This document shows positions 18,172 through 58,400 of a stretch of DNA of 64,000 nucleotides, piece after piece. The stretch is from contig OX485806.1 in NCBI GenBank assembly GCA_950295325.1, forward strand, positions 47,425,169-47,489,168, in the 5' to 3' direction. The position numbers and the translations under genes are program-made. Position 1 is the first letter of the stretch; each line of letters starts with the position of its first letter. The notes under the pieces were generated by a model. The model made no database searches. It had not been told where the DNA came from and was given only the letters and a program-made list of their open reading frames with translations. The stretch comes from Polytrichum commune (Eukaryota > Streptophyta > Polytrichopsida > Polytrichales > Polytrichaceae).

Positions 18172-18201
18172 GGTGGAGACATACAACCCAACCCGGGCCC
18201 A
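18172..18201 (+). other. 2A-like ribosome-skipping motif, copy 1
   Basis: Translates as GGDIQPNPGP. The NPGP core with an upstream D-(V/I) matches the 2A consensus D(V/I)ExNPGP except for Gln in place of Glu. 2A-like sequences are known near the N-terminus of several LINE ORF2 proteins, where they separate a short leader peptide from the enzyme. Whether Gln is tolerated here is unknown. Confidence 0.6.
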
Positions 18202-18564
18202 CTTTTACACATTTATAAAAGTCCCCCTATAAAAAACACACAAGAAACAAAACAATACTCTAAAAATCCATTCGTATTCCAATACGCCCAACTAGTAAGC
18301 CTATCGCCCATACACTTGTCACAACACCCCCCTAACCCCATCAAACTAGGCCTAGGCCATTCATACCACAAACCAACCGCCCCAAAACCCTTACACCCAA
18401 ACTCACAACATAACACCATAATTATACATAGATACATAGCTAACATATGGGCATTACCATACTTATTCCAAGATCAACCACCACCCATCATACAATCACA
18501 TATCAAAAAACCACAATCAAGCATAAGCATACAGCACCACAATCAAAAACATCTCCTCCTACAA

Positions 18565-18594
18565 TGTGGAGATATACACCCTAACCAAGGACCT
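18565..18594 (+). other. 2A-like motif, copy 2, core substituted
   Basis: Translates as CGDIHPNQGP, 393 bases after copy 1 and in the same frame. The NPGP core has become NQGP (CCA to CAA would do it), which should abolish skipping. The preceding residues (LLLQCGD against LILRGGD) suggest duplication of a whole leader module. Confidence 0.55.
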
Positions 18595-36048: not shown

Positions 36049-37000
36049 TGTACATGGACTTGATCACAAGTTTGCTAGAGTCACATGAGTATGATGTCAT
36101 CTTGTTGATGTTAGAGCGGTTTGCTAAGTTGACACACATGTCGATTGTGGGAACCGCAACCGCGTTGGAGACCGCATAGTTTTTTCTCAAATGATGGTTG
36201 AGGCACCATGGGTTGCCAAGAGTGATGGTGTCAAATCGAGATCCAAAGTTCACAAATGCAATTTTGGAAGGACTTTCTTAGGGAGGTCGGAATGAAATAA
36301 AGGTTTAGCACGACCTTCCATTCCCAAATGAATTAGAAAACAGAGCGTGTGAATGGAGTCTTGAAGCAATACTTGAAGAACTTGGTGGGGGCAAACCAAG
36401 AGGATTGAGCGGACTATGTGGGTCGAGCAGAGTTTAGTTATAATGTAGCCACGCACTGGGCGACCAAAAGGGTGGTCTTTCGTGGTGGCTTTTGGAGAGC
36501 GCTTTAACCGACTAACCTAGTTTTCGAGGGGGCACATTCAACGCTAAATATCAACCAAGATGATGAGGAATTGGCCAAGAAGCGTGAACAAATCTTAGAG
36601 ATGACCAAGTTGTTGGACAAAACCCAAAAGTGGGGAATATGAGGTGGGCAAAAAATGTGGTGTTGAATGTGAAAATTTTGCCTTGCCCGAAGGCCTCACT
36701 CCAGAGTCCATGTCCAAAATTGGAGTTTCGTTCCCCATTGTGGAACAAATGTTCAAAGACATGTGTAAGTTGGAATTACCGCCCGAAATCAAAGTGCATG
36801 CGACATTCCATGTTTCATTACTAAAATCATTTAAGAAATACACCTTGTGGCCCGATTGCAAGCAAATGATTAGGCCACCTCCCGAGCTTGTACGAGGTCA
36901 TTTGGAACATAAGGTAAAAATGCAAAGAACTAATGAGAGTAGACGCATAAGAGTTATGAACCCATGTCTCGAAAGAGCAAAGTGGACACCGAGTCGGGTG
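36049..37000 (+). pseudogene. Gypsy integrase core and C-terminal remnant
   Basis: YMDLITSLLESHEYDVIL and then RFAKLTHMSIVGT (about 36050-36150) give the first catalytic Asp region. LRHHGLPRVMVSNRDPKFTN (about 36205-36255) gives the second, with Asn-Arg-Asp in place of the usual Ser-Asp-Arg-Asp. The C-terminal part at 36644-37081 reads LPPEIKVHATFHVSLLKSF, typical of the integrase end before the polypurine tract. Stops and shifts interrupt it. Confidence 0.75.
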
Positions 37001-37378
37001 GGACTTGGCATCACATCTGTGCCATCAAGGCGTCGCTTAACAATGGAAAGCCACCTTGGAGTTACAACCAAGACAACTTAGTGGAAGCGTTGAGCTCTTG
37101 CTTAGATGTGTCATGTTAGGCTAGTGGACGCCCCAAAGGACAGGCAACCCAAGTGAGTCCCAAAGTAAGAGAATTTAGTGTAGGTTAGGTCCTTGAAAGA
37201 GAGATGCAAGGTCGCAAATGGACCACCTAGGAACGACACCTATGGGACTACGCCAAATTAAAAGATGCACTGTGGGGGTCGCGCCCTAAGGTAAAACAAT
37301 GCCGCACCATAGAGGATGGCAATTTGAGAATTGGTGTGCCGACTACAAGTATAGTCGATGAGGGCATCGGTTTCATTT

Positions 37379-38347: not shown

Positions 38348-38872
38348 ATATACACCGATGGGCTTTGAGTCAATGAGCAACATACCTACTATTGATTGGA
38401 ATGTAGAATCCAAAGATGAATACCAATAGGAGTCCGATGTTTCATCTCACAATGTGACACCTCTAGCACATTGAACTTAGCATGGTCATGCATACTCACA
38501 CAGATCAATGATGGAAGTTTTTGTAGTATATGTATTAAGCCTTGGGATTCAAAGGCACATGGATCATTGGCTTTTGTAGTCATATGGTTCATTTAAATTG
38601 TTTGTTGTATTACATGATGCAAACACATTGTTGTCCTTCATGCAAAGTTTTTTTTTGTTGCAAGTTGTATGAACAATTTTGGCATGCACTAGGGAATGCC
38701 TTTAGATTATGAGTACCATAGGGTCCTTTTGTACTGCCCATAGATATAGAAATCCTCTTAATTACAACAGTTAGGCATGAAAATATGTCAAGGACCTTTT
38801 GAGGTTATCCAAGGTACCTCATAGGCAAACACATCACAAGGAAAGCACATGAGTTCTACCCTAGCTCTACAC
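38348..38872. other. Spacer, nothing recognised
   Basis: Single-copy-looking sequence between the gypsy element and the Mutator-like transposon. The final ten bases (38863-38872, AGCTCTACAC) are the left flanking repeat of the latter. Confidence 0.5.
38863..38872 (+). repeat. Left target-site duplication of the large transposon
   Basis: AGCTCTACAC, repeated exactly at 55458-55467. The inverted ends themselves contain CTCTAC, so a chance contribution is possible. Confidence 0.65.
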
Positions 38873-38966
38873 GGGAAACTCAAGTATGTGAGCGTAGAGC
38901 GGAGAGCGGAAAATTTAGATTTTGTTGGGTAATTTTAGGAGAAGCAGTGCCTATTTCCGTGGAATT
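38873..38966 (+). repeat. Left terminal inverted repeat
   Basis: Contains the 20-bp exact core at 38891-38910 and the 13-bp subterminal match at 38950-38962. The outer 17 bases match the right end only partly. Confidence 0.75.
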
Positions 38967-39260
38967 AGAGATAGTTTGAATTCTATATTTGGAAAGGTAC
39001 CCCCATTCCCGTGGACATAATAACCCAGAATTGTTTGAGAAACCAATGGATCCTATAGGCGTGGAAGATTGCATTTGTTATCAAACATCTTATAGTATAT
39101 GTTTTCAAATGTATCATATTAAATTAAGGCTGACGTCACCAAATTGAAATCAAAATACCATACACAAAATATTTTATTGGTTAACACAATGTAGCCAACC
39201 TCAAGACTTACAAAAATGGGTAGTTAGTTAAAATAGCTATATACTCTAGTTTAGGGCCAT

Positions 39261-39569
39261 CTACACCCTATCTGCCGGGCATGTCCAATATGGGTAAAAT
39301 GATCCAAAGAACATGCAATAAAATTCCGTCGCACCATAACAGCCTTCCAATTCAGTCCTTAGCTTAGCCAAAGACCTCAAAGACAAATCCCCCAAGTCCA
39401 ACTTTAGAATCCTCTTGGAAATTTTTGAGGTGACGTGCCGGCTCTTTGAGAACAACATGAAGTTCAATTTAAAAAGTTTGACGAGGTTATGTTCGCGTGC
39501 CAAACAAAACTTCCAATTGCTATATAGCAATTGGAATTGGAAGACGGCCAATGTGATTAGTGTGCACAA
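39261..39569 (-). other. Unidentified ORF near the transposon's left end
   Basis: A 102-codon minus-strand frame lies downstream of the ParB/methylase-like gene. Its middle (LKLDLGDLSLRSLAKLRTEL) looks helical and its end is rich in aromatics and Cys. I recognise no family. It may be non-coding, since it overlaps a 26-bp palindrome. Confidence 0.25.
39511..39536. other. 26-bp perfect palindrome
   Basis: TTCCAATTGCTAT followed immediately by its reverse complement ATAGCAATTGGAA. It lies inside the transposon, 3' of the ParB/methylase-like gene and outside the main array. Confidence 0.9.
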
Positions 39570-41071
39570 CCATAAAATAAACCATCCACACTAATAGAAA
39601 GTATGGTCCCCCTATAACTAAGATCTCACACTAAGAGCCGAGAGCTAGATTGTTTTGTGACTAGAAGTTAAGAGATCCGAACGATGAAGAAAAAATAAAG
39701 AATGCAATGCGGATTGACATTATGAATATGAAATAATGGAGAGAAAGAATGAAACTTGAGCCGGATATCAAAAATAAAACCAACACACAACTTTTATTAA
39801 AGCCGGATAACAACAACAAACGGAGTTATAATCTCCAAAACCAAAATGATAAACTAAGGGCTTGGAGAACATTCCCTATCACTCTCCTCACCCTCATTTG
39901 CTTCTAACAAGAAAAGATTTCGTGTCCCACGCGAGAAATGACGAACGCGAGGAGGAGATGGGGACTCCGCCTTCGCAAAATAATCCGCCATTGCACTAAC
40001 ATACGGGGGAAGCTCAAACGGCTTCGGAGGACTTGAAAACATGTCTCGACGAATGACTGCGACCTCCGCTGGCTCTCTAAACACCCAAGCAAAAGGATTA
40101 GAAACATGATGACACTAGAAAATGAGAATTTGAAATCAAGGCAAACATGGCAAAATATAGAAAGCAAACTTACGCACAAAGGAATCCGAATGCCCTCTTG
40201 GTCATCTTTTGAGGAGGATCAAAGATAGATGTAGACGGTGCGGTAACTGAGCGAGATATACGCGCAGGCTGGGGATCGCGCATGGGGAGTAGGAGTGAAT
40301 TGAAAATGACGGGGTCACTCTCAAGGGCCACAATATGCCGCTCAAGGGAGCGACATGCTGTAATCGAACCACCTAAAGCAACGAGAGGTAAAATGTTAGT
40401 ATGGAAATTAGTCAAGGAAAAATAATGGAAAATTCAAAGTAAAGATGAAGTTGAAAAACAAGGCGTACCTACACCACACTGCCAGTCCATAATAACATCA
40501 TTCTTGTCGGTGAGAGTAGCGAGAAGGATGGAAAAAAAAATAGGATGTTTCTCATGGGCACCTCGCCAAGGTACCCCATTACTGCGCATCGCCTGGCTGT
40601 TCTCATCGATGAAGGTATTCAACCATCCATCTCGTTGGAGGTTGTAACCATACTCTTGTATGGCCTCCTCCCGCACTCTAAGAACGGAGTTAACACGAAC
40701 AAGAACTTTGATGCTGAACTTCCGAGTCTGCAACAATGAAAATGAAATTGAATTGAAATGAAATGGAATTGAAATGATAAGCAATACGGAAGGGGAAGAG
40801 AGGGAGACTTGCTTACCACTCCAGAGGGAACAACGGGAGATTGGAGGTCCAAATCATTCATTCCAAACCAATCTTCCGCGACGTAGAAGTCATAAGTGTG
40901 TGCCCAATCGAAAATACTCCTAGAAACACTGGCACTCGCACAATGGGCAAGAACAAGGACACCATGATCATAGAGGTTAGATTTTGCAAATGCAAAAATA
41001 CACTCATAGTATGATTCATGGAGCTTGTTCTAAGCAGGAACATCGGTGGAGATGTTCGGCACCGGCAAATT

Positions 41072-41083
41072 CTCGGGAATGTC
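41072..41083 (-). other. Methylase motif IV position (DIPE)
   Basis: Codons GAC ATT CCC GAG give Asp-Ile-Pro-Glu after LDLLFA. N6/N4 methylases have (D/N/S)-P-P-(Y/F/W) here. Loss of the aromatic suggests binding without catalysis, or divergent chemistry. Confidence 0.45.
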
Positions 41084-43156
41084 GGCGAAGAGCAAATCGA
41101 GGCCCTTGTGAGTTGTAGTTGAGGTGTTCACACGGGAACGACTTGCCCCAACCTGCAATTGAAACTTCATGAGAAAACAAGAAGGAAAGAAATAAGCAAA
41201 GCAAAGGAAAAAAAATTGAGAATTGACGAAGGCAAGTATACAAACCTTGGCAATGAATTCTTGAATGCGGGTATATGCGGGGAGGGGACCTCCGGCAACC
41301 TCGGAATCCAACATTAGTTGAACCATGTCCACATTTTCGATGAGAGAAAGCGTGTTAGGGGCATCCGAAGAGGTGGCACTGGTATCCAAAAGAGCGGCCT
41401 TCCCTTTCTCCTTGGTGCCTTAGAAGGAGGAGGGGGAAGCTCAACGATGTCAGGCTCCTCCAAGGTAACAATGTTATCATCCGGAGCACTACCCACAAGG
41501 CTAGCAAACAAAGCCTTCTCTTCCCCGGGGACAAATCCTGCAGCACAATTCAAGTACCATCCACCACCTTGCAAGTGCAATTCGGAGAACTTGTTTGTTT
41601 GCGCGGTCGTGTACACGCAGAGGCTAGAAAAAATATTCACCCAGTCCGAGAGGTAGTCCAGCAAGGAAGATGAGGCCAATGCATTCTTCACAACCAATTC
41701 TCTCATGATATACCTACATGACAAAACAAGAATGTAAGAAAACCAAGAAAACGAGCAAGAAATGAAATTAAGGAGAGGTGCAAAGTGGAGGATAGATGTA
41801 TTACCGATAGGCCACACGCTTGATAGCGAGAGCCCCCTCCTCGAACTCCAAGAGATTATCACCTTTGGCAAAGGCGATGTCAGGCTTATCGCCGAGGTAA
41901 GGCTTGAAGGCCTTGTCCCAAAGGACAATCCGCCAATGATCAACGTACTCACGAGGGCGCAAGATAGTTTCTGATGCATCCCAATCAATGTCGACGGAGA
42001 GGCTCTCCTCTAAGGTCTCAATTTCAACCGCGACTTCCTTCTCCAACTGCAGAGAGGGCGATGATTAGATATGAGATAAATGGAATAGAGGAAAATGAAA
42101 ATGAAGAAAGCCGAGGAATGGATTTACCTGAGCCCATAAGGACGCCTTGTGTAGCCAGTCGTCCAAAGTCCTCTCCCTCATAGGCTTGTCGACGGGGAAC
42201 TTGTTATCTAACCTTTCACGAAGGGGGGCGTTCCACCAGTAAAGCCACTTAGCTTTGAACGAAGCTTCGACCGGGCATGTGACAATTTTTTGCAATTTTT
42301 CAATTGTCATGTCCGTCGAAAAGAACTCATTAAAATGGCGGTCAATCTGTGCACAAAATAAAAATGATTTGAGTTCAAAAGAGTAATAGAGTTGAAGAGT
42401 GATTTGGATGAATTGCGTTCAAGAGTGATTTGAGTTCAAAAGAGTACCTCATGAAAGAAATCCTCTCCATTGTCAAGGTGTGCAACGGATATGTACTTCT
42501 CAAAAGAACGGGCCCGAATATTTTTGATTGTCCTCTCCTGGGCCTTGGTCATAACAATCCAAATCTCAGTGGCCGACCTCTCCGCAACGGGTGTGGTCTC
42601 ACGGTAATGCCTCACTGCAAGGTCTGCTTGAGCCGAAATGTCTCTCTGCAAGAAATGATCTTGTGAGTTCATATAATCGGCATAGAAATTATCTATGTTA
42701 GAAGCTCTAAATGATTGAACGCACAAACCATACCTTGTAAAGAAACTTAACGAACACATCCGCGGTCAAGGTGTACCAAGTTGGACGACTCTCCTTTATC
42801 TTCTCGCATGCTTTGTAGTCAGATGGCGATATGAGATCCTTAAAGGTGGACAACTCTAACCTTCCAAAAGTGCGGATTCAAAGGAGCTTGGCCGGAATGT
42901 TTGCCTTGACATAATCATGCTCGGTTGACCTGAGAGAAAATATGTGAGGAACGTGAGGTGAAAAGAATGGAAAAGAATTAAAACAAAAATGAAAAATGAA
43001 TGAAAAAAATGAGTGAGCTTACCAATTAATGTCGCTCATGGCATTGAGAAATACACCGGTGTATCCTCTAGGATCAACAACAATGCAATCCACCGAGATA
43101 TGCCAACTCTTGTCATCGGCGTGGTGGTTATTGATGTGTCTCCACCAAGCGGTGAG

Positions 43157-43165
43157 ACGATGATT
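43157..43165 (-). other. ParB/Srx-type G-N-H-R box
   Basis: Codons AAT CAT CGT encode Asn-His-Arg in WEGNHRLTAW, about residues 188-190. The ParB/sulfiredoxin superfamily has a G-x-(H/R)-R box in the nucleotide-binding loop. Confidence 0.5.
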
Positions 43166-43988
43166 GCCTTCCCAGACGAAGAACATCTTCCCGGCGAAAT
43201 GTGCACGATCCGGATCCTCCTTGAGCTTGGCGTCAAATTCTGCGGAGGCCTCTTGCCAGAGAGGGCTCCAAGAGGCCATAATGCCAGGGGGAATGGGGAG
43301 GTCCACGGGAACGTCGTTGAAAGCAGACACGTAAAGAGCTCGATCACCCTCTCGGTATCCCATTACAAATTCACATTCCAAGCGCTGCACCTCAACCTCA
43401 CTTATAGGACGGACGAGAGGGAGGGCTCTCAAGCGGCACAAAGGAATGGATAAGCGGGACTTATAGGTTGGCTTAATCCGAAGGCGTTGGATAACACCAA
43501 TGGAGTCCTCCTTTTGTGATTTCCGAAGCTCAAACTCACACACCACGGGATCCGTGTCGGCAACTGCTTGAACGGCATCTTCGTTCATTGCGAGAGCCTA
43601 ACAAAAACACAAATAGTAAAACCATGCTTAGAAAGCTAGAACTCAAAAAACTTGCTCAACAAATTACTCAACAACTATCCAACTCACCTCTACTTGTAAT
43701 GGGCCCTGCGAATTGAGACTCTCAACCTGCACAGCTTCAACTTCAACCGCGGGGGCCGCAAGAACAACATCCTCTCCATATTGGGATTGCGATTGCGCAA
43801 CCTGTGAAGAGTCCATATCCTAAGAACATGGAGAAAATGAGAATTTCACAAAGAAAAGTCAATAACTTCGTAACTATAAAGAAACAAATCCTCACAAAAA
43901 CAATACAAGGCCGAGAGCAAACTACAAATGGAAATGGCCGAATGCTAAGTCAAGTGGTCAACTCTAGCACTAACCTACCTACGAATGA

Positions 43989-44646
43989 GAGGCCTCGGAT
44001 CCGAGGCCTCTTTTCCTACCTCTTCCTTATGCACTACCCAAAAGAAAAAGGCCGAGAGAAATCTTATGTGAACATAGCAGTTTGACTATTAAAGCCCATA
44101 CATTGTCTCCAAAATGAGGCCTCGGATCCGAGGCCTCTTCACAAACCTCTTACTCATGTAGTACCCAAAACAAGAAGGCCGAGAGCAATCTTACACGAAC
44201 ATAACATTTTGATTTTTATAGCATAAAATTCACACAAACATGAGGCCTCGGATCCGAGGCCTCTTCCCAAAACACATACTTATTCACTACCCAAAACAAG
44301 AAGGCCGAGAGCATTCGAAAATGAACATAAGATTTTCATTTTTCAAGCACATACCTTGACACAAAAATGAGGCCTCGGATCCAAGGCCTCTTCACAAAAT
44401 ACCTACTTATGCACTACCCAAAACAATAGGGCCAAGCGCATTCAAAAATGAGCATAACATTTTAACTTTTCATGCACATACCTTGACACAAAAATAAGGC
44501 CTCGGATCTGAGACCTCTTCCGAATGCCCCTCCTTATGAAATACATACTACATAAAATGGCCGAAAGAATTCAAAAATGAACCTAACATTTTCTTTTTTC
44601 AAGCACACAACCTGACTAAAAAATGAGGCCTCAGATCCGAGGCCTC
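43989..44646. repeat. Palindrome array zone 1 (about 127-bp unit)
   Basis: Six units starting near 43989, 44117, 44242, 44369, 44497 and 44625. Spacers share GCACTACCCAAAA, AAGGCCGAGAGCA and CATAACATTTTGA. Copies 4-6 have one or more substitutions in the palindrome. This zone begins about 170 bases upstream of the ParB/methylase-like start codon. Confidence 0.9.
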
Positions 44647-44702
44647 TTCCAAATGCCCCTCCTTGATGATTTTAAAACCTAACCAATTTACTTGTTACAT
44701 GG

Positions 44703-44723
44703 CTCACGGGTGTTCACCCGTGA
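44703..44723. other. CACGGGTG-TT-CACCCGTG inverted repeat, copy 1
   Basis: An 8-10 bp inverted repeat with a 2-base centre, preceded by TTGTTACATGGC. Related copies occur near 45099-45121 and 47420-47442, with arms extended to CCCACGGG(T/C)G and CACCCGTGGG. It is a second palindromic motif class within the array. Confidence 0.8.
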
Positions 44724-45098
44724 GGTTCACATTTGATGATGTTCCAGGGGAGGTCACTCCATTGCCAAGTTGCATCACCAAAATGGGTCAAATTTTTCTC
44801 AAATTTTTCTGGAAGGTAGATATATATGATATCTATTACGGAGTAAAATATCATGACCAAATTTGATGATCATATTTTTCTAGAAAACATACCATTTCTA
44901 CCTAGAATGACGTAGAATTCAACTAAAACAATTACTAGGAAAAATGAAGATGACAAAAAATTCCAAAAAAATAACCAAAAGATATAATCAATGGTTGTGA
45001 ATATAGAGAAAAAAAATCATAATTTTTAAAAATATTTGACATGGAGACATCTCCCCGTGATGATGCTAAATCCTACCCAAGTTACCTGTTACATGGCC

Positions 45099-45121
45099 CA
45101 CGGGTGTTCACCCGTGGGGCA
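45099..45121. other. CCCACGGGTG-TT-CACCCGTGGG inverted repeat, copy 2
   Basis: Perfect 10-bp arms around TT. The flanks (TGTTACATGGC before, GCACA after) match copies 1 and 3. Confidence 0.85.
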
Positions 45122-45368
45122 CACATTTGATCATGTTAAAACCTAACTTTTCATGCACATACCTTGACACAAAAATGAGGCCTCGGATCCGAGGCCTCTT
45201 CCGAATGCCCCTCCTTATGAAATACATACTACAGAAAATGGCCGAGAGAATTCAAAAATGAACCTAACATTTTCATTTTTCAAGCACAAACCTTGACACA
45301 AAAAAAAAGGCCTCGGATCCGAGGCCTCTTCCCAAAGCTCCTACATATGCACTTAACAAAATACAATC

Positions 45369-45571
45369 CCCCCCCTGCAGCTTCAGACCTCCATATCTTC
45401 CACGTGTGGTCTCCGAATCTAACAATCAACCACTCTATCGTCATCTACGTAAAATGTAGATGCCGATGGACACCTCACTTGCTCCATTTGGGCAAAAATC
45501 AAGGAAGTTATGCCTGTTTAAACATTCGCAGTCCCGGGAGCCACTCCCAGGGGACTGCTGATCGAGGGCAC
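45369..45571 (-). mobile_element. LTR-derived fragment captured in the array, copy 1
   Basis: GCAGCTTCAGACC through CAGTCCCGGGAGCC and GGGGACTGCTG follows the middle of the gypsy LTR in reverse orientation (compare 23520-23705). It has no LTR ends. Confidence 0.75.
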
Positions 45572-45844
45572 TAAAAGGAGGCCTCATTTTGAAACTAGTG
45601 TACATACTCAAAAACAAGCAAAGTGCCTCATTCATACAAGCTATACGTTGAATCAAAAAATCTCAAGTGGCCTCGACTGAGAGGCCTCGGATCCGAGGGC
45701 TCACACACAAAGTAATTTACGTACTCCAAACCAACCATAGTGCCTCATCCGTACACTAGTTTTGGAACACATAAAAGAGGCCTCGGATCCGAGGCCTCTT
45801 CTCCTAGCTCCTACATATGCACTTAACAAAACACATTTCCCCCA

Positions 45845-46045
45845 CCCGGCAGCTTCAGACCTCCATATCTTCCACGTGTTGTCTCCGAATCTAACAATCA
45901 ACCACTCTATCGTCATCTACGTGAAATGCAGATGCCGATGGACACCTCACTTGCTCCATTTGGGCAAAATTCAAGGAAGTTATGCCTGTTTAAACATTCG
46001 CAGTCCCCGGAGCCATTCCCTGGGGACTGCTGATCGAGGGCACTA
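45845..46045 (-). mobile_element. LTR-derived fragment captured in the array, copy 2
   Basis: Nearly identical to 45369-45571 and followed by the same CGAGGGCACTAAAAGGAGG, so the fragment was duplicated together with array sequence. Confidence 0.8.
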
Positions 46046-46145
46046 AAAGGAGGCCTCGGATCCGAGGCCTCATTCACAAACTAGTTTACATACTCAAAAC
46101 AAACCAAAGTGCCTCATCCGTACACTTGTTTTGGAACACATAAAA

Positions 46146-47341
46146 GAGGCCTCGGATCCGAGGCCTCATTCACAAACTAGTTTTCATACTCAAAACAAAC
46201 CAAAGTGCCTCATTTGTACACTTGTTTTGGAACACATAAAAGAGGCCTCGGATCCGAGGCCTCATTCACAAACTAGTTTACATCCTCAAAACAAACCAAA
46301 GTGCCTCATCCGTACACATGTTTTGGAACACATAAAAGAGGCCTCGGATCCGAGGCCTCATTCACAAACTAGTTTACATACTCAAAACAAACCAAAGTGT
46401 CTCATCCGTACACTTGTTTTGGAACACATAAAAGAGGCCTCGGATCCGAGGCCTCATTCACAAACTAGTTTACATCCTCAAAACAAACCAAAGTGCCTCA
46501 TCCGTACACATGTTTTGGAACACATAAAAGAGGCCTCGGATCCGAGGCCTCATTCACAAACTAGTTTACATACTCAAAACAAACCAAAGTGTCTCATCCG
46601 TACACTTGTTTTGGAACACATAAAAGAGGCCTCGGATCCGAGGCCTCATTCACAAACTAGTTTACATACTCAAAACAAACCAAAGTGCCTATTCCGTACA
46701 CTTGTTTTGGAACACATAAAAGAGGCCTCGGATCCAAGGCCTCATTCACAAACTAGTTTACATACTCAAAACAAACCAAAGTGCCTCTTCCGTACACTTG
46801 TTTTGGAACACATAAAAGAGGCCTCGGATCCGAGGCCTCATTCACAAACTAGTTTTCATACTCAAAACAAACCAAAGTGCCTCATTTGTACACTTGTTTT
46901 GGAACACATAAAAGAGGCCTCGGATCCGAGGCCTCATTCACAAACTAGTTTACATACTCAAAACAAACCAAAGTGTCTCATCCGTACACTTGTTTGGGAA
47001 CACATAAAAGAGGCCTCGGATCCGAGGCCTCATTCACAAACTAGTTTACATACTCAAAACAAACCAAAGTGCCTATTCCGTACACTTGTTTTGGAACACA
47101 TAAAAGAGGCCTCGGATCCAAGGCCTCATTCACAAACTAGTTTACATACTCAAAACAAACCAAAGTGCCTATTCCGTACACTTGTTTTGGAACACATAAA
47201 AGAGGCCTCGGATCCGAGGCCTCATTCACAAACTAGTTCACATCCTCAAAAACAAGCAAAGTGCCTCATTCATACAAGTTATACTTTGAATCAAAAAACC
47301 TCAAGTGGCCTCGACCGAGAGGCCTCGGATCCGAGGCCTCA
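46146..47341. repeat. Palindrome array zone 2 (96-bp unit)
   Basis: Twelve units at exactly 96-bp steps from 46146, then one irregular copy at 47320. The spacer is CATTCACAAACTAG ... CAAACCAAAGTGCCTC ... TTGTTTTGGAACACATAAAA. Because 96 is divisible by 3, a spurious 456-codon ORF (46131-47501) is open through it. Alternating spacer variants suggest expansion by blocks of two or more units. Confidence 0.95.
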
Positions 47342-47419
47342 CACACAAACTAGTTTACATACTCAGAACCAACCAAAGTGTCTCATAAAGACATGCCTAA
47401 CCAAGTTACTTGTTACATG

Positions 47420-47442
47420 GCCCACGGGCGTTCACCCGTGGG
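47420..47442. other. CCCACGGGCG-TT-CACCCGTGGG inverted repeat, copy 3
   Basis: The same motif as near 45099, with one arm mismatch. It marks the border between zones 2 and 3. Confidence 0.8.
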
Positions 47443-47519
47443 GCACAAGGCAGAGAGCAAGGAATCAAAAATGGAAGAAAGTTGACATTCCATTAGTTTG
47501 AGAAATCAAGAACCTCACC

Positions 47520-49215
47520 TCTCTCAAAACCCTACCTCTCACATACTCAAACTTACACAAATATGAGGCCTCGGATCCGAGGCCTCTTTCCCTAGCTCTT
47601 TCTTATGCACTACACAAAACAAGACAAGGCCGAGAGCAATTGATGTGCACATAACATTTTGATTTTTCAAGCACAAACCTACCCACAAATAAGAGGCCTC
47701 GGATCCGAGGCCTCTTCCTATGGCTCCCACTTATGCACTACACAATAGAAGAAATGGCCGAGAGCAAGAAATCAAGAAAGCAAGAAAGTTGACATTCCAT
47801 TAGTTTGAGAAATCAAGAACCTCGCCTCTCTCAAAACCCTACCTCTCACATACTCAAACTTACACAAATAAGAGGCCTCGGATCCGAGGCCTCTTCCCCG
47901 AGCTCCTTCTTATGCACTATACAAAACGAGACAAGGCCGAGAGCAATCGATGTGGACATAACATTTTGATTTTTCAAGCACAAACCTACCCACAAATAAG
48001 AGGCCTCGGATCCGAGGCCTCTTCCTATGGCTCCCACTTATGCACTACACAATAGAAGAAATGGCCGAGAGCAAGGAATCAAGAAAGCAAGAAAGTCGAC
48101 ATTCCATTTGTTTGAGAAATCAAGAACCTCGCCTCTCTCAAAACCCTACCTTTCACATACTCAAACTTACACAAATATGAGGCCTCGGATCCGAGGCCTC
48201 TTCCCCTAGCTCGTTCTTGTGCACTACACAAAATGAGACAAGGCCGAGAGCAATTGATGTGCACATAACATTTTGATTTTTCAAGCACAAACCTACCCAC
48301 AAATAAGAGGCCTCGGATCCGAGGCCTCTTCCTATGGCTCCCACTTATGCACTACACAATAGAAGAAATGGCCGAGAGCAATGAATCAAGAAAGCAAGAA
48401 AGTTGACATTCCATTAGTTTGAGAAATCAAGAACCTCACCTCTTTCAAAACCCTACCTCTCACATATTCAAACTTACACAAATATGAGGCCTCGGATCCG
48501 AGGCCTCTTCCCCTAGCTCTTTCTTATGCACTACACAAAACAAGACAAGGCCGAGAGCAATAGATGTGCACATAACATTTTGATTTTTCAAGGACAAACC
48601 TACCCACAAATAAAAGGCCTCGGATCCGAGGCCTCTTCCTATGGCTCCCACTTATGCACTACACAATAGAAGAAACGGCCGAGAGCAAGGCATCAAGAAA
48701 GCAAGAAAGTTGACATTCCATTAGGTTGAGAAATCAAGAACCTCACCTCTTTCAAAACCCTACCTTTCACATACTCAAACTTACACAAATATGAGGCCTC
48801 GGATCCGAGGCCTCTTGCCCTAGCTCGTTCTTGTGCACTACACAAAACGAGCCAAGGCCAAGAGCAATTGATGTGCACATAACATTTTGATTTTTCAAGC
48901 ACAAACCTACCCACAAATAAGAGGCCTCGGATCCGAGGCCTCTTCCTATGGCTCCCACTTATGCACTACACAATAGAAGAAATGGCCGAGAGCAAGGAAT
49001 CAAGAAAGCAAGAAAGTCGACATTCCATTTGTTTGAGAAATCAAGAACCTCGCCTCTCTCAAAACCCTACCTTTCACATACTCAAACTTACACAAATATG
49101 AGGCCTCGGATCCGAGGCCTCTTCCCCTAGCTCGTTCTTGTGCACTACACAAAATGAGCCAAGGCCGAGAGCAATTGATGTGCACATAACATTTTGATTC
49201 TTCAAGCACAAACAT
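47520..49215. repeat. Palindrome array zone 3 (307-bp unit, two palindromes each)
   Basis: Units repeat every 307 bp from about 47562 to 49119, about 5.5 units. Each has one palindrome after CTTACACAAATAT and one after CCTACCCACAAATAA. The spacers carry AAGGCCGAGAGCA and GACATTCCATTAG as in zone 1, so zones 1 and 3 share ancestry. Units differ by only a few percent. Confidence 0.95.
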
Positions 49216-49311
49216 ACCTTTCCTGACATGTTCCTAAACCCAAATCAGGACAAGGCCGAAAGCAAGTCAAGCTGATATTCCAAATACTATGAGAAATCAA
49301 GGTGATAGAAA

Positions 49312-50310
49312 TTAAGCAAAAACGTTGGCGAACATAGCTTGGCCGAGATCCCGACACCTTACCAGAATTTGGAGTATGCCCTCCACTGAAGCCCCTATAT
49401 TGGCGCCACTATCTTCCGAGGTCCCGTCCTCTGTCGGCGTTATTGGAGTGCTTCTCGAATCTCCGAGGTTTATTTGCGCCATTCCTCTCCCGCGGCCACG
49501 CCCTCGCCTTGATGTTTGTTGTGTTCCGCCCGCCTTGCTTCGCTGAAATCTTGAAGCAGGGGTCACAACATCCACACTTAGGGTTTCTGCGCATGGGTCT
49601 CCTCCTTCAGCTCTTTCGCGGCCTCCCAACAAATTTGATTTCAGATCTTCCTTTGCCGCTTTCCTCTTGGACGCCTTCATTTTTTCTCTAGCTTGAATCG
49701 TTGGTTGTCCCGACATCGGTTCTCGCTCTTCTAACGCCTTCTCAATTTGTTGTGCTACCTCCTTGTTGTCCTTTTCGTAGATATTTCCACTATCTCCACT
49801 CCCCCCTTCTTCCTATATTTAAGATAAAACAATGTTTATAACAATGATGACAAACCATAATATCTAAAAGAAAAGTTGTTTCACAGTTGAATATGTTCTA
49901 CCATTTTTATTATGTGCTCAAACAACTGAATATATGGAGAACCCGAAGAATACGTACGACACTTGTAGAGTTTGTCTCTTCGCGTGAGTCCTCTTGGATG
50001 ATGTCGTTTCCCAACTCCTCCACTTCTGCCATTGGTTGCGCTTTACTTCCGTCCGCCTCTTCTACAATCGGTGATAAATGAAAAGGCCGAATCCCACAGT
50101 CTAGCCTCCACGAAGGTTCCGCAGGTCCTTTATGCTTTGGCTCAAATCCTCGGGCATCCCACGGCCCTCGATTGGCGCTTTCCTTGCCTGTGACTTTTGT
50201 GTCCTCACTGTCTTTCTCTTCTTATCAGTGTAATGTGTAGACGATCGCCTCCTCTTCTTTTTCTTAGATGGTTCCGTTGTCGGAGGTTGTGAATTGCCTA
50301 TTTCCTTCAT
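49312..50310 (-). CDS. Basic, RG-rich nuclear-type protein, probably three exons
   Basis: The first exon starts at 50310 (MKEIGNSQPP) and has a strong nuclear-localisation stretch, SKKKKRRRSSTHYTDKKRK. The middle exon ends at 49958 (donor GTACGTAT). The last exon, 49312-49812, starts after an AG at 49813-49814 and encodes an acidic then basic helix (IEKALEEREP ... REKMKASKRKAAKED), a TSRRGRGRGRGMAQ block like an AT-hook or RGG segment, and a short hydrophobic end. The junction between exons 1 and 2 is unclear: a TAG at the end of the first frame (50101) needs a weak donor or marks damage. It starts about 320 bases from the divergent transposase start. I recognise no family. A DNA- or RNA-binding accessory protein is a guess. 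Confidence 0.5.
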
Positions 50311-50629
50311 GTGTTCAACCCTCCCGCAATTCAGACCTATTCGCTCTATTTCCTTTCCACAACCTCACCACATCAAACTCACACATTGGAAATAAAGTGA
50401 GCAATCGCATTCTTTTCAATATATAATTGCAATACCTCCCGATGGGAGGCGCGCTTTACTATCTGACAACCATCTTTGTAATTAGGGGTATCTTTTTTTA
50501 GGATGCCTGATAGTTTTGTCTCCTTCCTAATATTCATGCGTATTTGTTTATAACTTCATCATCATCACCATTCTCCTTCTCTATGCATCTTTGCATCTTT
50601 GTTCCTTCACGTTTGCTTTCTCTGCCTTC
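50311..50629. promoter_or_regulatory. Divergent intergenic region between the two transposon genes
   Basis: About 320 bases separate the minus-strand basic-protein gene and the plus-strand transposase, so they probably share a bidirectional promoter. The stretch CAATATATAATTGC near 50417 is TATA-like. No other element is clear. Confidence 0.45.
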
Positions 50630-52754
50630 ATGGCTTCCACCTCAATTCTTCCTCCCGTCTCTGAGATGGCCGAACTTCGTTCACATGGCATCGGGGTCCC
50701 TATTATATTCCCCATTGGTGCACAAGGTATTGTTGTTGTCTCGGAGCTTCATCTTAGCATTAGGTTCTCTTTGAAAGCTAGTACAATATGGGTAGAGCGT
50801 GAGATCTACCATCCTGATACTGGATTGCTCGTTCATACCTTCCATGAGACCTCCAAGGTAACTGACAATGGCAATGTAGTGTGGGAGCTTGGCGCGGGAA
50901 AGTATAGGGTTTGTGGCTGGCCAGATTCTCAGATGGGAGTGTCAACAGAAATCCTTCCTCCTCTTCGATCATCCACTGTTGCCTTTAGCACACCCCCGAT
51001 AATAAGCGTCAAGACCGAGCCTGGCGTAGACAACGTTATAGACTTGTCTGATTCTTCGAGTGAAGATGTACCAGTGCATAAGGTTGCTGTCCATGATTCC
51101 CCTCATTTGTTTCCCTTTGCATCCTACGTAACGCCTTCTCCATCTAGCTCTGTCCCTTCAACTACTTCGGTCCCTACATCTAAACCTCCTCAAACTATTG
51201 TTCAATGTCTTCGTCGTCTTGGCTCTATGCCCGGTAGTAAGAACGTCCTCAAGAAAATAGATTACGATAAAATCAAAATCCAAGAAGTTAATCACCTTCC
51301 CCCTCGTTTCGATGGCACCCAGTTATTTGTCCTCCCTGCAGCAGAAGTCTCTTCATCTCAAAACCAGGGCCAAGTCGTTGGACGGCATGGACAAGCAATA
51401 TGATGGCCATGTTTGGACTAAGACTCAAACCACCAACATTACAAACGACGTTGGCCTTGCATTTCGTTCCTCTACATGTGTTGACCATCTCCAATGCCAA
51501 AACCCGACTTGTGATTACCTTCAACACGCCCATCGTACCTCTAAGGTCAATGACACAGAATTTGAAGGTTTCACTAAAGATCCTTTCCCTCTCTCTGGCA
51601 TTGTGCCATCCGGATCTACTCTTGTCTGCAGGATTTGTAAAGAGCCTCCCAAATGCATTGCACTATGCGAGGCCAAAATCTTCTACGTCCATGGGAAGGA
51701 GTCATCCCAAAGAGCCTGCATTCATCTCGGTTCTCATCAACATCCAGTGAAGGTTGGAGACTGCAGAGACAGTCGGAAGCGTATCAATGCACTTCTTGAG
51801 GAGCACATTGAACGTACGCCTCAAGCCACCCACAGCAAGATCGTCCTTGAAGCTAGCAAGGACATTGTTGGTGAGTTTCTCCTTTCTGGCGATAATGACA
51901 CACACCGTCTCTTCTCTTTAAAAGAGCTTGAACCTGTTTTTGAGAGCTGTAGAGAGTTGAATTCCCCAAACCTTCGCTCTAAGGTTACCTCTTTCAAATA
52001 TTTGCGGAGGTTTGGTGTTATGGATGGCATCGCGAAGCTCCGAGGCGTTAGCAATTGGGCCTACGTCCAACGGAACCAATTCCCATGACAAGGTGACGAT
52101 ACAGACAAGGTGTTCGTCTTTAAGATGTCGGAGGTTGGTCCTGGAAGTGGAGTGGATTTGGTTCGTCGGATGCAACCGGGTGGGGACCTGGAGAACGCGT
52201 GGATGATGTCCGATCACGTGAAGCGGGTCAAAGGGTGGACCACCATGGCCGCTCATGTGTACGATGGGACTTATCAACGGGTCATGACCATTTCATGTTG
52301 TGATTTCCAATCGGAGGATAAGGATGCCCAAGTTCTCTTCTGGCAGAACCTCAACCACGTCATGGCCCGACACGGTATTCCACATCCAAACTTTATAGGC
52401 TTCATGGCGGACAGTGCCCAAGCCAATTGGAACGCTGTTCGCATTGTGTATGGTTCAGGGGATCCCAAAGTTCCAATGGAGGGTCGTGAGCGCACTTGTT
52501 TTTTCCATTGGAAACAATCGCTCGAAAAACATACGAAATCGTATATAAAGCATGAATTACAAGACCAACATAGACATCTTTGCCTTCAATATCGAAATGC
52601 GTCATCTATGGAAGAGGCTGAGACTAGGTACCTAGCTATCAAGGCTTGGTGGGCGTCATCGAATTGTACAAGTGAGGACGGTCTCAAGCATCTTCAGCTC
52701 TGGCTTGCTTTTTGGCACTTCCGCTACCTTCAATGGGGTGGTTTCATGGAACTG

Positions 52755-52845
52755 GTACATCTCCTTTATAATTCATTATTGGTTTTTCTTGGATTCGATT
52801 TCCTCTCTCTGTACATTTATATTAATACTTGATTTCTCCAATCAG
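52755..52845 (+). other. Intron in the transposase gene
   Basis: GTACAT ... CCAATCAG, 91 bp, pyrimidine-rich before the acceptor. Removing it joins GGFMEL to EKVLTQDQLAE in phase 0. Confidence 0.8.
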
Positions 52846-54087
52846 GAAAAGGTTTTAACCCAAGACCAATTGGCCGAGATGCCGTCGTGCAATCTTGCGG
52901 AGTCCGTCCACAACAAGTGGCTTCAAGCCTCCGGCAACAAGGGTGGAGATCTATACGTGGCTACGGTTGACGACTACATTCGCGCCTTCTTACAAGTTGT
53001 TGCATACTACCAGTTCCTTAAAGGTGGAATTGGCGGAGATGGTCCAAGCAAAGAAGAACTAAAGCTCAGGGGTGCTCAACGTCGAGCTCAGCGTACTGGC
53101 GACCCCACAGTGTTGCAGAAGGTCTTGCTTGACATGTCCGGTGGGGAAGAATTTTGCACTCGCGATCCACACCTTGAGGGCGCCGAGGTGTTTGGATCGC
53201 AGAAGCGAAGACCAGACACTCCAATTGGTGATGATGGCGAGACCCACCGCCCCGATACCGTGAACTTCTCTCGCCCTCCCCCCGGTAAGCGTGTCACTCG
53301 ATCTCAACCAGAAACACTACCCACTATCATTGAGGAGTCTTCCCCCTCTGTACAAGAGGTTCAAGTGCCTTCACCTGCAGGACTTGGTTTCCAGCGTGTC
53401 GCTGCCGTGCAAGAAACCAAAGTAGATGTCTCTCTTTGGCATATTGCCCGCATACCCTATACGTCTGGGAAGTCTTGTTGGGCTAATCATGCGGGCACGA
53501 AGAAAAAGTGCACCGCAAGAATCGTCACTAATAATAAGAGCGTCCCTGCGCCGACCTACACCGGTATGTGGCATCATTACAAACTCCAATCTATGAAGCG
53601 CACGGACTTTGTCTTTTGCCCAGACGACATTGAGCGTTGCATGAAGGGCCCTCGTCGGAAATGGGTCATGCAGTTCTCTGCTGATGACCAAAAGCCTCCT
53701 ATTCCCCCAATCTGGCCCGTGAAGATTGGTACCAACCTCACCCGCTCGGAGATCTTCGCCCTTGAGAACACAGGTTTTCAACTCCCACCAAAGGAGTGCA
53801 TCACACCGACTCAACTCTTCACCAACTCTGCTCCCCCGCTGGATATGTCTGGAATCCGTGTTCGAGAAAACCCCGACATGATCCCTCCGACAAGATTGTC
53901 CAAGCTTGTTCGGCGATCCAGCAACGCACCTTCGGCAAAGCAGAGGCAGATGGTGGCCTCTGCTGAAGCTATGCATGGTACCGTTCTGAAGTTAACTATG
54001 ATCCCTCAACCGGGATTTGGTTGCATTATCACACTGCAATCCAAATCAGAACCCCAACCACCGATCTACCAAGTGACAGTCAGTTCT

Positions 54088-54190
54088 CTTCCAGAGTGCA
54101 ACTGCACATACTTCTTGAATATGATTTCCAAGTTCAGCCGCAAACGAAATTCTTATCTGAATTGTAAGCATTTGTATTACATTTTCATCA
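54088..54190 (+). other. SWIM zinc-finger coding segment
   Basis: C-x-C followed by about 22 residues, then C-x-H (ECNCTYF ... NCKHLYY). SWIM fingers sit C-terminal to the catalytic core in many plant Mutator-like transposases. Confidence 0.75.
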
Positions 54191-54515
54191 AGGTTTCTAA
54201 TTTGGATGCGGAAGTGGATTTGTTCATTCACGCCCCGACATTTAGCTTCAACGAAGTCAAACTCATCCTCGAAGGGGGTCTTTTGATAAAGTCTACTTCT
54301 TAGGATTTATCTCAGCCTAGCAGTACTTTGGGCTATGATATACGTATCCATTTCTGGACCTCTTGCAAAGCAATAATTGATTGATATAATAAAGGTATAA
54401 TCTCAATGATTATTTTTATTTGCTTCAAAATTTTGTATTACAATACTTCCTATGTCTATCAACTCTATTTCCGTTTTGCATACTTCTTAGATAATTGCGA
54501 GGGAGGTGGATCCGG

Positions 54516-54973
54516 TCAAAGCAAATCCATATAAGAAACTGTCTTATCTCTCTTTCGATCCTTCAGCGGAAGATGATGCGGCGTCATTCCTCTCATCCGT
54601 TCGCGAAATGAAAAAGACTTCAAAGATTCCCCTTCCACCTTCACCTCCTCCTCCGTTTCGTTCGATTTGTCTTCATCCAAATCAGCATCCTTCTCCGGCA
54701 CATCTTCCTGCCTTTTTTTTTTTTTCTCATATTTTTTTGCTCCTCCCGCACCCTCCACCTCCATGCTTGTGTAGACTGCGAAAATGGAGTCAGCTCGTAG
54801 TCATCACTACTTCGATTTCCAGCAGCAAACTCAAATTCCGGCGATGGATTAACCGGAATATGAGGATCTGCTAGACTTCTAATTTCCTTATCCCATCCTA
54901 ATCCAGCAAACATGTCTCTCTCATCTCCCATTGTGTGCAACTGTATATATAATGATGTTGGGTATGAGTCCAA
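54516..54973 (-). pseudogene. Small right-end ORF, frameshifted, charged
   Basis: The front frame (54973 leftward; likely start at 54931, MGDERDMFAGLGWDKEI) and the back frame (ending EEVKVEGESLKSFSF ... SYMDLL) overlap around an A/T homopolymer at about 54715-54735, where a frameshift probably occurred. The joined product would be about 130-140 residues, acidic at both ends with a basic KKYEKKKKRQ middle. It converges on the transposase gene. No family recognised. Confidence 0.4.
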
Positions 54974-55261
54974 TTTATAATCTATTCGGCCACAAACGAT
55001 AATTGCTAAAGTCTAAGCTATAGAATAGACTCACATATAAGACAAAGAGAAAAGTGATGAATAAAAACCAAGCAAGTTTATTATTTTGATTCCTTTGTAT
55101 TTTGATTGACTCATTTTTCAATTATACCAATCTCAAAAAATCCATTTTCATTGATTTTTTCTTGTAGTCATCCTTGGTTTTAATAATTCAACCACCTCAC
55201 GGTTTCCAAACTTAATGAGACCATTTCAAATTCAAGGTTTTATTTTATTTTATGACCTATA

Positions 55262-55457
55262 CATCCCACGGAAATAGGTCCAATTTTTTACTATTATTGT
55301 CAGATTCTGGTATATTCTTGGTATATTCTTGGTATATTCTTGGGTATTTTGAAATATCCGAATTTTAGTCTGACAAGTTTACTATTTTTATTTCCTCTAC
55401 GCTCTCCGCTCTCCAAATCTCCGCTCTCCGCTCTACGCTGACATACAAGTGTCGTCC
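55262..55457 (-). repeat. Right terminal inverted repeat and subterminal repeats
   Basis: It includes the 20-bp exact match at 55420-55439, a second partial copy of the same CTCTACGCTCTCCGCTCTCC theme at about 55396-55415, three direct repeats of TTGGTATATTC at about 55309-55343, and the subterminal match at 55266-55278. Confidence 0.75.
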
Positions 55458-55467
55458 AGCTCTACAC
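55458..55467 (+). repeat. Right target-site duplication of the large transposon
   Basis: AGCTCTACAC, identical to 38863-38872. Confidence 0.65.
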
Positions 55468-58400
55468 CTAAAGTCTATGGTGAAATTTTATTTTCATATT
55501 GAATCATGAGAGACCATGCTAGCAATACAAAGTATCAAAAACCCACACATTTAATATCATATTTATGCCTCAAATGGTAAGGTGAACATGGGAATATTGC
55601 CACCTGACCTAGTTACTTGCGAGACAATGATTTGGGATATCAAACACATGTTGGACGCAAACACACGTCACCCAAAAGTTGTCGTTCTACGAGTTATAAA
55701 TTCAAGTACGGTTGAAAATATGGAATTATGTCAATGACTTGATGCACATTTAAGATGGAGCCAATAGCCCACACATGCAAGACATGCTCCTCCATGTCCA
55801 ACTATTAACGTTGGCCATTGGAAACCACATGCGCATTTTTTCTTAAGCGGCTAAGGAAGCAAAAACAATGGAATTTTGGGCCTTCAATGAAAGTAAGCGC
55901 GAGGCGGGATGCCAAATCCTTCGAGCATAGAGTTTGAACTCACAATGAAGGTTGTGTTTTTACTAAAATCAACTTTGATGCATTATGTTTGATCCGATTT
56001 TACATAATGTGTAAATAACATTTTGTATAATTTCTAGATAATTTTGTGTTCAATATCACTTTTGATATTAATGTCACATTGTTGCTACTCATTATGATTT
56101 GCTCAAAATTCAAGTTTTGTCAACATGTAATGAAATCATGGATAGGCAATTGGACACATGTTTGCTCAACTTTGAGGGACCTTTACTTCGAGGCATTGTT
56201 TTTGGATGTTCATGCATAGGATGCTAGGCTTTTGGGTGAATGGGAGGTTTGTGAGTTCAACGAGGACAACCATTACGTGGGTTTTTTAATATTGTCTCCA
56301 TTATCTATCCATGTTGTAGTGGATTATCCAAAAGGTTATATACTCATATTACATCCGCGACATGAGACATATGCTAAACCGGTTTGGGTGGCAATTTTTT
56401 TGTTTCAACCAGATTTTGTAACTCATAGTTTTCATTTTTGAAACTCAAGCGGAGTAGAACTAACCAACATCACGGAATAGATATGTGATTTGTCATTACA
56501 CATATTCGGATACAAATCTTAAATTTTGTTGGAAGGTGGATTATGAGCATGGTTTAACTTTGATACATATAGATTCATGTAGAGCTAACTACCTCCACTT
56601 GGTTCTAAAGTTGGTTGTATTGTATAAACCTAGAAAGTCTTCCAAATTAAGATGAACCAAATTATCTAGTCTTTTTGTTGATCACTTATTATCTTGCTTT
56701 TGTTTTTTGTTCATGGTTTTTTCCATCGATTGATGGTGATTTGTTCTTTTTATCACAACCTCTTAGTCATCTTTTAAAATTTTGTCTACCTTAGGTTTTT
56801 TTTAGTTGATGCGAAGGCAATCAATTATTAGCAATGAAATTTCTTAATGATAACCGCCGATCACTTGTGAGGATCTCTGTCAAAGTGATTTTGTTCTTCC
56901 TTGATAAATCTTCAAGTAGTCCTTCTTTAGCCTTAAGTATTAGTCTATTGGCCTTTCTTCCAAGTAATGATATTTTTCATGTCCCGTTGTTGTCCCTTAT
57001 TTTCTTCTTTGGAGTTGTTTTGTAGTGATAAAAAAATTCCTTTATTCAATTGCTAGATTATTCTCAATTTGTGTTGCAATTGTTATTTTAGCTCAAATTC
57101 TATTTCCTACCTCATTTTAACATCAAATAACCTTGTTTGTCGTTATAGATCCAACAATTCTCTAACCAACGTCATTATCGTATGGCTTTAGCTCGGCTTT
57201 AGTAGACTAAGTGTATCAAATTGTTGTAAAACCAAATAGCTCTAGTAGACTGAGTATCTTCATTGTTGTAGACCAAATAACTTTAGAAGGCTAAGTATCT
57301 ATTGTTGTGGTGAACAAGTAGCTCTAATAGATTAATTTTCTCTTTGTTGTTGTAAATCCAAGTTGTTAAGTTTCTTTTGGTTGTTGTAGAACCAAATAAC
57401 TCTGGTAGACTAATTGTTCTTGTTGTTGTGGAACCAAATAGGTCTAGTAAACTAAGTCTTTTGTTGTTGAATTACCAAATATGTCTAGTAGGCTAAGTAT
57501 CCAAGTAAGCCTTTTGAGTGGTGCATTTTGTAAGTAACCAAATAATCATTTTGAGTAGTTTTTTTATATGTAACCTAATAGCCAAGTAGTGATGAAATCA
57601 CCTTCAACCCTCGACCTTAGACTATGTAATCCATTGTTGACAAGTTTACACAAACATCACTTCCACCAAAATTGAACTGCTATAAATTTCCATTTTCTTC
57701 GAAGGTGGTCATATGCATGTTATTATCGGTATTTTTATTTTTATAACATTCTTTTTGGTAAGCTCTTACGAAGTCTTAAGGGGTAGATGCCCTAGGTTTC
57801 TAAGTTCATGTTCCTTTAAATCCTAATGTCAAGGTTAAGAGTCTATGGACGGGAATTCATTCATAGTCCAATATCATGTGAAATTACTCTTATATCTTTC
57901 ATGGTTTGAATAACTTATAACCACATTCAGTCAATTTAATTTCAAAGGTGCTTAGTCAAGAGCGTCAAAATCCTTTTGTATTTCAAGCATATTCCGTTGT
58001 TAATGAAAATCTACTTAGTTTGATGAATAACATTTAGTTTCTTGAATTTTTTTATTTATTCCATCATCCACAAAGTCCATGTTAACATCAACTGCAAAGT
58101 ACTTGATCAATGTTCTAGTTTCAAGAGTACATTCCAAAATTATACATGATCAATGCTCCCACATATTCCCACTCATCAAGGGGTCAATGGGTAAATAGTT
58201 CCCTTCACACACATAAATTACTTCAAAGTTCATTTACATTCCATTGAAAACCCTTGAGGTTCAATTTTTGTTGATTTCTCTTTATAGATTCATTTGTTCT
58301 CGGTTCCATTTTGATGTCCTTCCATATCCTCCCAGATTCATTATCTATTGATGGCCTTGCATGACTCATCTCTTCCAACATAAATGTCAACTTCAGTCGA

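Follow-up and report, generated by a model that had tools for sequence, protein, structure and literature searches.

A Mutator-type transposon family of Polytrichum commune with a ParB-like gene and a palindrome array that diverge together between subfamilies

The window analysed in this work is a 64-kb stretch of DNA from Polytrichum commune (assembly GCA_950295325.1, contig OX485806.1, positions 47,425,169 to 47,489,168 of the forward strand). It contains a decayed transposable element, which belongs to a large and amplified Mutator-type family with two divergent genes. One gene encodes a transposase and the other encodes a protein that is referred to here as ParB-like. An array of the 22-base palindrome GAGGCCTCGGATCCGAGGCCTC is placed between the ParB-like gene (minus strand, left) and the transposase gene (plus strand, right). 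In diverged copies of the element, the motif of the array follows the ParB-like protein rather than the transposase. The ParB-like protein and the array diverge together between subfamilies. The reading that we favour, with somewhat better than even confidence, is that the ParB-like protein would bind the array of its own element in cis and would protect or regulate that element. It would do so in the manner of the VANC proteins of Arabidopsis VANDAL elements, from unrelated domains.

The initial annotation of this DNA described about 37 perfect palindromes. The dense array is present, but it comprises 35 sites, of which 27 are exact, seven have one mismatch, and one has three mismatches. Two other positions score low, with 5 and 6 mismatches, and overlap genuine array sites. 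The 22-mer was not found elsewhere in the window at up to six mismatches. The genome that was searched comprises 407.8 Mb in 64 contigs, seven of which are large. At up to one mismatch, the 22-mer has 2678 matches per strand in this genome, and its reversed control has none. A second inverted repeat, approximately CCCACGGGTG-tt-CACCCGTGGG, was also observed within the array region. It lies inside the three-copy repeat D14 (44661-44743, 45055-45137, and 47379-47461).

Copies of the ParB-like gene were identified by matches to its exon 2, and the best 150 of 1277 candidates were considered. The best 30 matches, including the window's own, are termed close copies. The 22-mer occupies the same place in all 30 close copies, of which 25 have a common register, and the occurrence of the gene together with the array is thus borne out in sister copies. 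In the stretch read, 151 of the 179 sites in the close copies are exact, and 16 of the 30 copies have exact sites only. Diverged copies were represented by 24 copies that were hand-picked, and hence not a random sample, from the 95 listed matches below 90% identity. These copies exhibit other motifs at the same place. The motif is AGGCCTCGGATCCGAGGCCT at 86% ParB identity, AGGCCTCGGGTCCGAGGCCT at 81%, and CCTCGGATCCGAGG at 77-79%, while the group at 64-69% ParB identity exhibits CCCTCTCGGAACCGAGAGGG, CTCTCGGCTCCGAGAG, CCTCTCGATTCCGAGAGG, or repeated half-sites GCCTCTCGGAATC. The motif variants have the core CTCGG/CCGAG in common. The count of this core is above that of all 60 shuffles in 21 of the 24 diverged copies (in L078 in a degenerate form). 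The motif type is also that of the nearest relative by exon-2 DNA in 17 of 21 copies, and three of the four disagreements involve motif types that were seen once. This neighbour count used 21 of 25 copies, where the three copies without an array and one degenerate copy were left out.

The transposase-core matches considered are the best 150 of 1723 candidates, with identity down to 79%. For ParB-like matches with a domain identity of 55-70%, the median identity of the transposase core in the pair is 96% (45 of 82 such matches are paired, among the matches listed). The same median was obtained from the 31 pairs that lie within 12 kb. The inner motif of the element ends has 239 genome matches at up to two mismatches and none for its reversed control, and 100 of the 239 were listed. 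Fourteen of the 100 listed end matches, with no or one mismatch, have a ParB-like match of 62-66% identity inward within 40 kb. These findings bear on a possible, though not probable, explanation in which the transposase or a host factor would use the array as its binding platform (an internal promoter or enhancer, or a transpososome site), with the ParB-like protein acting at some other place. Mutator elements are known to use subterminal as well as terminal sites, and the location of the array between two divergent genes would suit such a platform. However, the transposase core remains about 96% identical in the median and end matches are shared in copies that have another ParB-like subfamily and another motif, and the motif type tracks the ParB-like subfamily.

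In the cis-binding mechanism that we favour, the ParB-like protein would bind CCGAG half-sites of the dense array that adjoins its gene. The array is thus a plausible, putative docking site, as the initial annotation had proposed. The bound protein would act in cis on elements with the same motif. The most likely effect would be that the DNA of the element is kept open, either by blocking of silencing or by setting of its own expression. Each subfamily would serve mainly itself because the protein and the array diverge together between subfamilies. An extended form of this mechanism is proposed tentatively, and we consider it rather unlikely as a whole. In this form, a eukaryotic transposon would possess its own ParB-type system, where the protein loads at the palindromes, slides as a nucleotide-dependent clamp, coats the element, and excludes silencing over many kilobases. 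A dead methyltransferase domain would read the DNA, and the protein and the array would co-evolve between subfamilies. ParB is known to load at parS and to spread by sliding with cytidine triphosphate (CTP) (PMC7053999, PMC8367383). Spreading of the ParB type would explain how one array protects 16 kb.

The features of the window's element are shown in Table 1.

Table 1. Positions of the features of the Mutator-type element, counted from the first nucleotide of the window.
Feature	Position	Strand	Remarks
Mutator-type element	38873..55457	.	16.6 kb; ends and 10-bp duplication; one of 23 end-bounded elements
Left target-site duplication, AGCTCTACAC	38863..38872	.	Read in the sequence; 10-bp duplications also at two sister copies
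Right target-site duplication, AGCTCTACAC	55458..55467	.	Read in the sequence
Left terminal inverted repeat	38873..38915	+	Inner motif matched genome-wide
Right terminal inverted repeat	55415..55457	-	L099 and L101 have the same sequence type
ParB-like gene, 11-exon model	39854..43816	-	Two in-frame stops and one frame break in the window's copy
Exons 8-10, beta-class N6/N4 DNA-methyltransferase-like part	40173..41152	-	PHROG, PDB, and Pfam matches
Exon 2, predicted ParB/sulfiredoxin-fold domain, EGNHRLTAW motif	43023..43597	-	Structure
Array, 35 sites of GAGGCCTCGGATCCGAGGCCTC (27 exact)	43989..49121	.	First 1.1 kb with 5-7 sites in each of the 30 close copies
Candidate lysine/arginine-rich upstream exon of ParB-like gene	49363..49812	-	Putative; supported only by reading phase and splice signals
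Candidate first coding exon of ParB-like gene	49958..50310	-	Putative; no single frame open throughout
Transposase gene	50630..54303	+	One intron (52755-52845); a single in-frame stop and a frame break in this copy; C-terminal CxC..CxH

The initial annotation had tied the gene and the array to the element, and this link was checked among the matches listed. Including the window's element, 23 elements are bounded by listed end matches, of which 18 have lengths of 16.1-19.4 kb and five have lengths of 22.8-34.5 kb. Both genes are present in 22 of the 23, and the remaining one has the ParB-like gene only, among the matches listed. Sites of the 22-mer were listed for the start of contig C1 only, where 64 of the 65 distinct sites lie inside family elements and one lies outside (hand count). 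Among the best 150 ParB-like matches, 98 have a listed transposase match in head-to-head orientation no more than 40 kb away (no more than 12 kb in 72 cases), and another 12 have a transposase match within 40 kb in another arrangement. An open transposase frame of 766 residues was found in 29 of the best 150 transposase copies, and 18 of these exhibit 100% core identity, from which we infer that the family moved recently. The window's copy has decayed, with stops and frame breaks in both genes, and sister copies are better preserved.

A second copy of the element was observed at a distance of about 90 kb (G000:C4:47564350-47574986), inverted relative to the window's element. In ParB exon 2 and in the transposase core, it is 100% identical to the window's copy, and a short transposase frame of 247 residues is common to both. 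This copy is perhaps the product of a segmental duplication or an inversion. The part of G000:C4 from 42 Mb to its end (4.2% of the genome) contains 41 of the best 150 ParB-like matches and 38 of the best 150 transposase matches, many of them with stops.

The inverted ends and the 10-bp flanking repeat that had been noted earlier were both recovered, with AGCTCTACAC on both sides of the element. The inverted arms are 91% complementary over 32 nucleotides (38884-38915 and 55415-55446), and the outermost 11 bases of the element ends are less alike than these arms. The element therefore has the terminal inverted repeats of a Mutator-like element (MULE), though they are short and imperfect. Duplications of 10 bp, within the 8-11 bp that characterise MULEs, were found in all three copies that were read at both ends. 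The two sister copies have duplications of their own, CCCACCCGAG and CCGAGTTTCT, and ends like those of the window's element.

The transposase has 197 protein relatives. A structure was predicted for the relative P0065 (with 37 others), with a mean predicted local distance difference test score of 71 and a predicted template modelling (TM) score of 0.48. Foldseek ranks 1-4 for the transposase are all ISCth4, with E-values of 3.4e-4 to 1.4e-3 and low TM-scores of 0.18-0.33. ISCth4 is an IS256-type transposase, and IS256 is the bacterial kin of Mutator. The predicted fold is thus that of the RNase H-fold transposases related to IS256-type enzymes, which is another trait of MULEs. The transposase has no Pfam match over the cut-off. 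The Pfam MULE profile PF10551, which is a detector rather than a defining trait, matched none of the 37 aligned transposase relatives, and none of its 142 listed genome matches lies inside the element. A SWIM zinc motif after the catalytic core is a further trait of MULEs. The pattern CxCx(n)CxH was seen by eye in the transposase, and no profile match was obtained for it. Because the ISCth4 fold match is accompanied by 10-bp duplications in three of three copies, it is a sound reading that the element is of the Mutator type, as first annotated, on a branch outside the reach of the Pfam model. The transposase would mobilise the unit via the terminal repeats, where the fold and the duplications were observed and the near-identical copies suggest activity. 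Neither the Rfam scan (gathering threshold) nor the tRNA scan of the window gave a match, and the scans of viral and prokaryote contigs found no relative.

The ParB call had been made by eye from the sequence and agrees with the predicted structure. The product of the second gene is predicted to have a domain with the fold of the ParB/sulfiredoxin superfamily (38 of 41 named in the Foldseek tally). Exon 2 alone has 198 protein homologues. One listed ParB-like protein (P0171) and one listed transposase (P0108) come from contigs of equal length (674632). The full-length read-through has no protein homologue, probably because the protein library holds exon-sized frames. The protein has no Pfam match over the cut-off. 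At the level of sequence profiles, which serve as detectors, none of 29 family members matched the Pfam ParB families, and the PDB profile search was also without a ParB match. A GNHR stretch is conserved in the protein and is no more than suggestive of CTP binding and clamp sliding.

The 11-exon gene of the initial annotation is workable as a model, but the window's copy is interrupted (Table 1). Exon 3 was found in 28 close copies besides the window's own and is open in 27 of these, and exon 8 is open in two sister copies, L093 and L094. The ratio of nonsynonymous to synonymous substitution rates (dN/dS) of ParB exon 2 within subfamily A is based on few changes and was not used as an argument. 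The array may sit within an intron of the ParB-like gene because the phase of two candidate exons on its upstream side, as judged by splice signals alone, agrees with that gene. This intron of 5.54 kb would span the array.

The C-terminal stretch of the ParB-like protein resembles, by its sequence, the beta-class N6/N4 methyltransferases, and its catalytic motifs are altered. This part matches a PHROG methyltransferase (2.5e-4), a DpnA-type protein in PDB (0.0015), and, under the cut-off, Pfam N6_N4_Mtase (0.019). The motif X-I region was recognised in an alignment of 46 residues. Catalytic motif IV of the beta class is (D/N/S)PP(Y/F/W). Beyond the window, the motifs were read in L093 and L094, which belong to the same subfamily, and in L097 (79%, one internal stop). 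DIPE was found in place of DPPY in all four copies, and DWQCGVGGS stands where DPFxGSGTT is expected, which alters the S-adenosylmethionine motif. Active methylation by the ParB-like protein is doubtful. Of the modification-like module that had been proposed, the methyltransferase-like part is present but its catalytic motifs are altered. It is unlikely that the element carries a modification system in which the protein methylates the array or the element as a self mark. The methyltransferase-like C-terminus and its dN/dS of 0.19, obtained from a single comparison between subfamilies, would be consistent with such a system, and bacterial ParB-methylase fusions exist, as described in passages of PMC5512222. 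DIPE in four of four copies and the altered S-adenosylmethionine motif argue against it. Among these copies, L097, which has N for D there, is itself partly decayed.

Several findings weigh against the cis-binding mechanism. Three of the 24 diverged copies (L074, L081, and L082) have no array in the 1.8 kb read. Near-identical copies inflate the neighbour agreement, and there are near neighbours whose motifs differ (L071/L069 and L084/L072). Among the matches listed, 37 of the 82 low-identity ParB-like matches are unpaired, and pairs with diverged transposases were missed because transposase matches were listed only down to 79%. The two genes are more than 12 kb apart in 26 of the 98 pairs, and some of these are perhaps chance or nested pairs. 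The agreement on the ParB fold is broad, but the Foldseek E-value is 0.028 and the TM-scores are low (0.37 and 0.39). L097, which has an in-frame stop, is one copy of the dN/dS pair. The anti-silencing role is argued from analogy. Co-divergence alone is no proof of binding because linked DNA diverges together anyway.

It is quite unlikely that the array is passive tandem DNA (a slippage product, a small-RNA source, or a hairpin-former) with an unrecognised palindrome. The diverged copies without an array in the stretch read would fit this explanation, and so would L070, L072, and L086, which exhibit half-sites in place of palindromes. Tandem repeats expand easily, and the window's array has three tandem regimes with unequal units (127 bp; 96 bp x12.8; 307 bp x5.8 with two sites per unit). 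However, the repeat units vary between subfamilies while the CCGAG half-site stays. One site in L033 (index 712) reads GAGGCCTCAGATCTGAGGCCTC, where two changes leave the palindrome perfect. The palindrome bases have also changed less than the spacers by raw count, without a significance test (23/3300 vs 150/13575, in 25 of the 30 close copies, where the five copies in a shifted register were excluded). A partition or nuclear-retention module, like ParB/parS on plasmids, was rejected as very improbable because, although the ParB fold adjoins clustered palindromes, no ParA-like match was found among the seven proteins or pieces of the element scanned and the element is integrated and repeated in many copies; the partition part of the initial annotation was thus not upheld.

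Other features were observed elsewhere in the window. A LINE-like element at 17608-22483 has an RNase H match (PF00075, 1e-15) and two 2A-like motifs in its first frame, GGDIQPNPGP and CGDIHPNQGP. A remnant of a Ty3-type retroelement at 36605-37078 has an SH3_Tf2-1 match (2.3e-7). Unrelated tandem repeats lie at 28482-29003 (about 56 bp) and 57196-57501 (about 41 bp).

The element was compared with known systems. It resembles bacterial ParB, Noc, and KorB with their parS-type palindromes in the fold and in the clustered palindromes beside the gene. It differs from them in being a eukaryote transposon, with no sequence match and no ParA in the pieces scanned, and a counterpart of the DNA-reading helix-turn-helix was not recognised in the ParB-like protein. 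The maize element MuDR (mudrA/mudrB) is likewise a two-gene Mutator element with a second protein. The role of mudrB in MuDR is unclear, and mudrB is not known to be ParB-like. The Bacillus cereus Bce_0392 fusion similarly combines a ParB-type domain and a DNA methyltransferase in one protein, as described in passages of PMC5512222, whereas the protein here has a long middle region, an intron-rich gene, and altered catalytic motifs. Retrotransposons with cytosine methyltransferases in dinoflagellates and charophytes (PMC5890265) also carry a DNA methyltransferase gene. Those enzymes are of the C5 type, whereas an N6/N4-type match in a DNA transposon was found here. The MULE groups in Table 1 of PMC6446971 include no ParB or methylase, and no report of ParB in combination with Mutator, a transposon, or a eukaryote was found in the open-access library that was searched.

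The closest comparison is with the VANDAL elements. According to PMC5735166, the short motifs bound by VANC21 lie in tandem repeats within non-coding parts of VANDAL21, and the protein removes silencing. VANC and its targets vary and the transposase is more conserved, as stated in passages of PMC5735166 and PMC10398659. The family reported here, like VANDAL, is of the Mutator type and combines a transposase with a second protein that changes faster and with repeats of non-coding motifs that vary from family to family. It differs in its ParB/sulfiredoxin fold and methyltransferase-like part and in its long palindromes with CCGAG in common, where the VANDAL motif has nine bases. Neither of the VANC domains DUF1985 and DUF287 was found by Pfam in the spliced ParB-like read-through. 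The ParB-like family would thus work like VANC/VANDAL but is no member of it. PMC5735166 describes as mysterious the way in which sequence specificity is set for targets that extend over an entire VANDAL element, and reports a spread of hypomethylation from the bound sites. A protein of the ParB fold beside an array provides a concrete, testable route by which an effect could spread from a loading site. The many copies with several motif variants provide a natural series for tests of protein-target co-evolution and a possible source of new sequence-specific tools for chromatin work. If the proposed mechanism is true, this family would represent a second anti-silencing system of Mutator elements, built independently of that of VANC and VANDAL.

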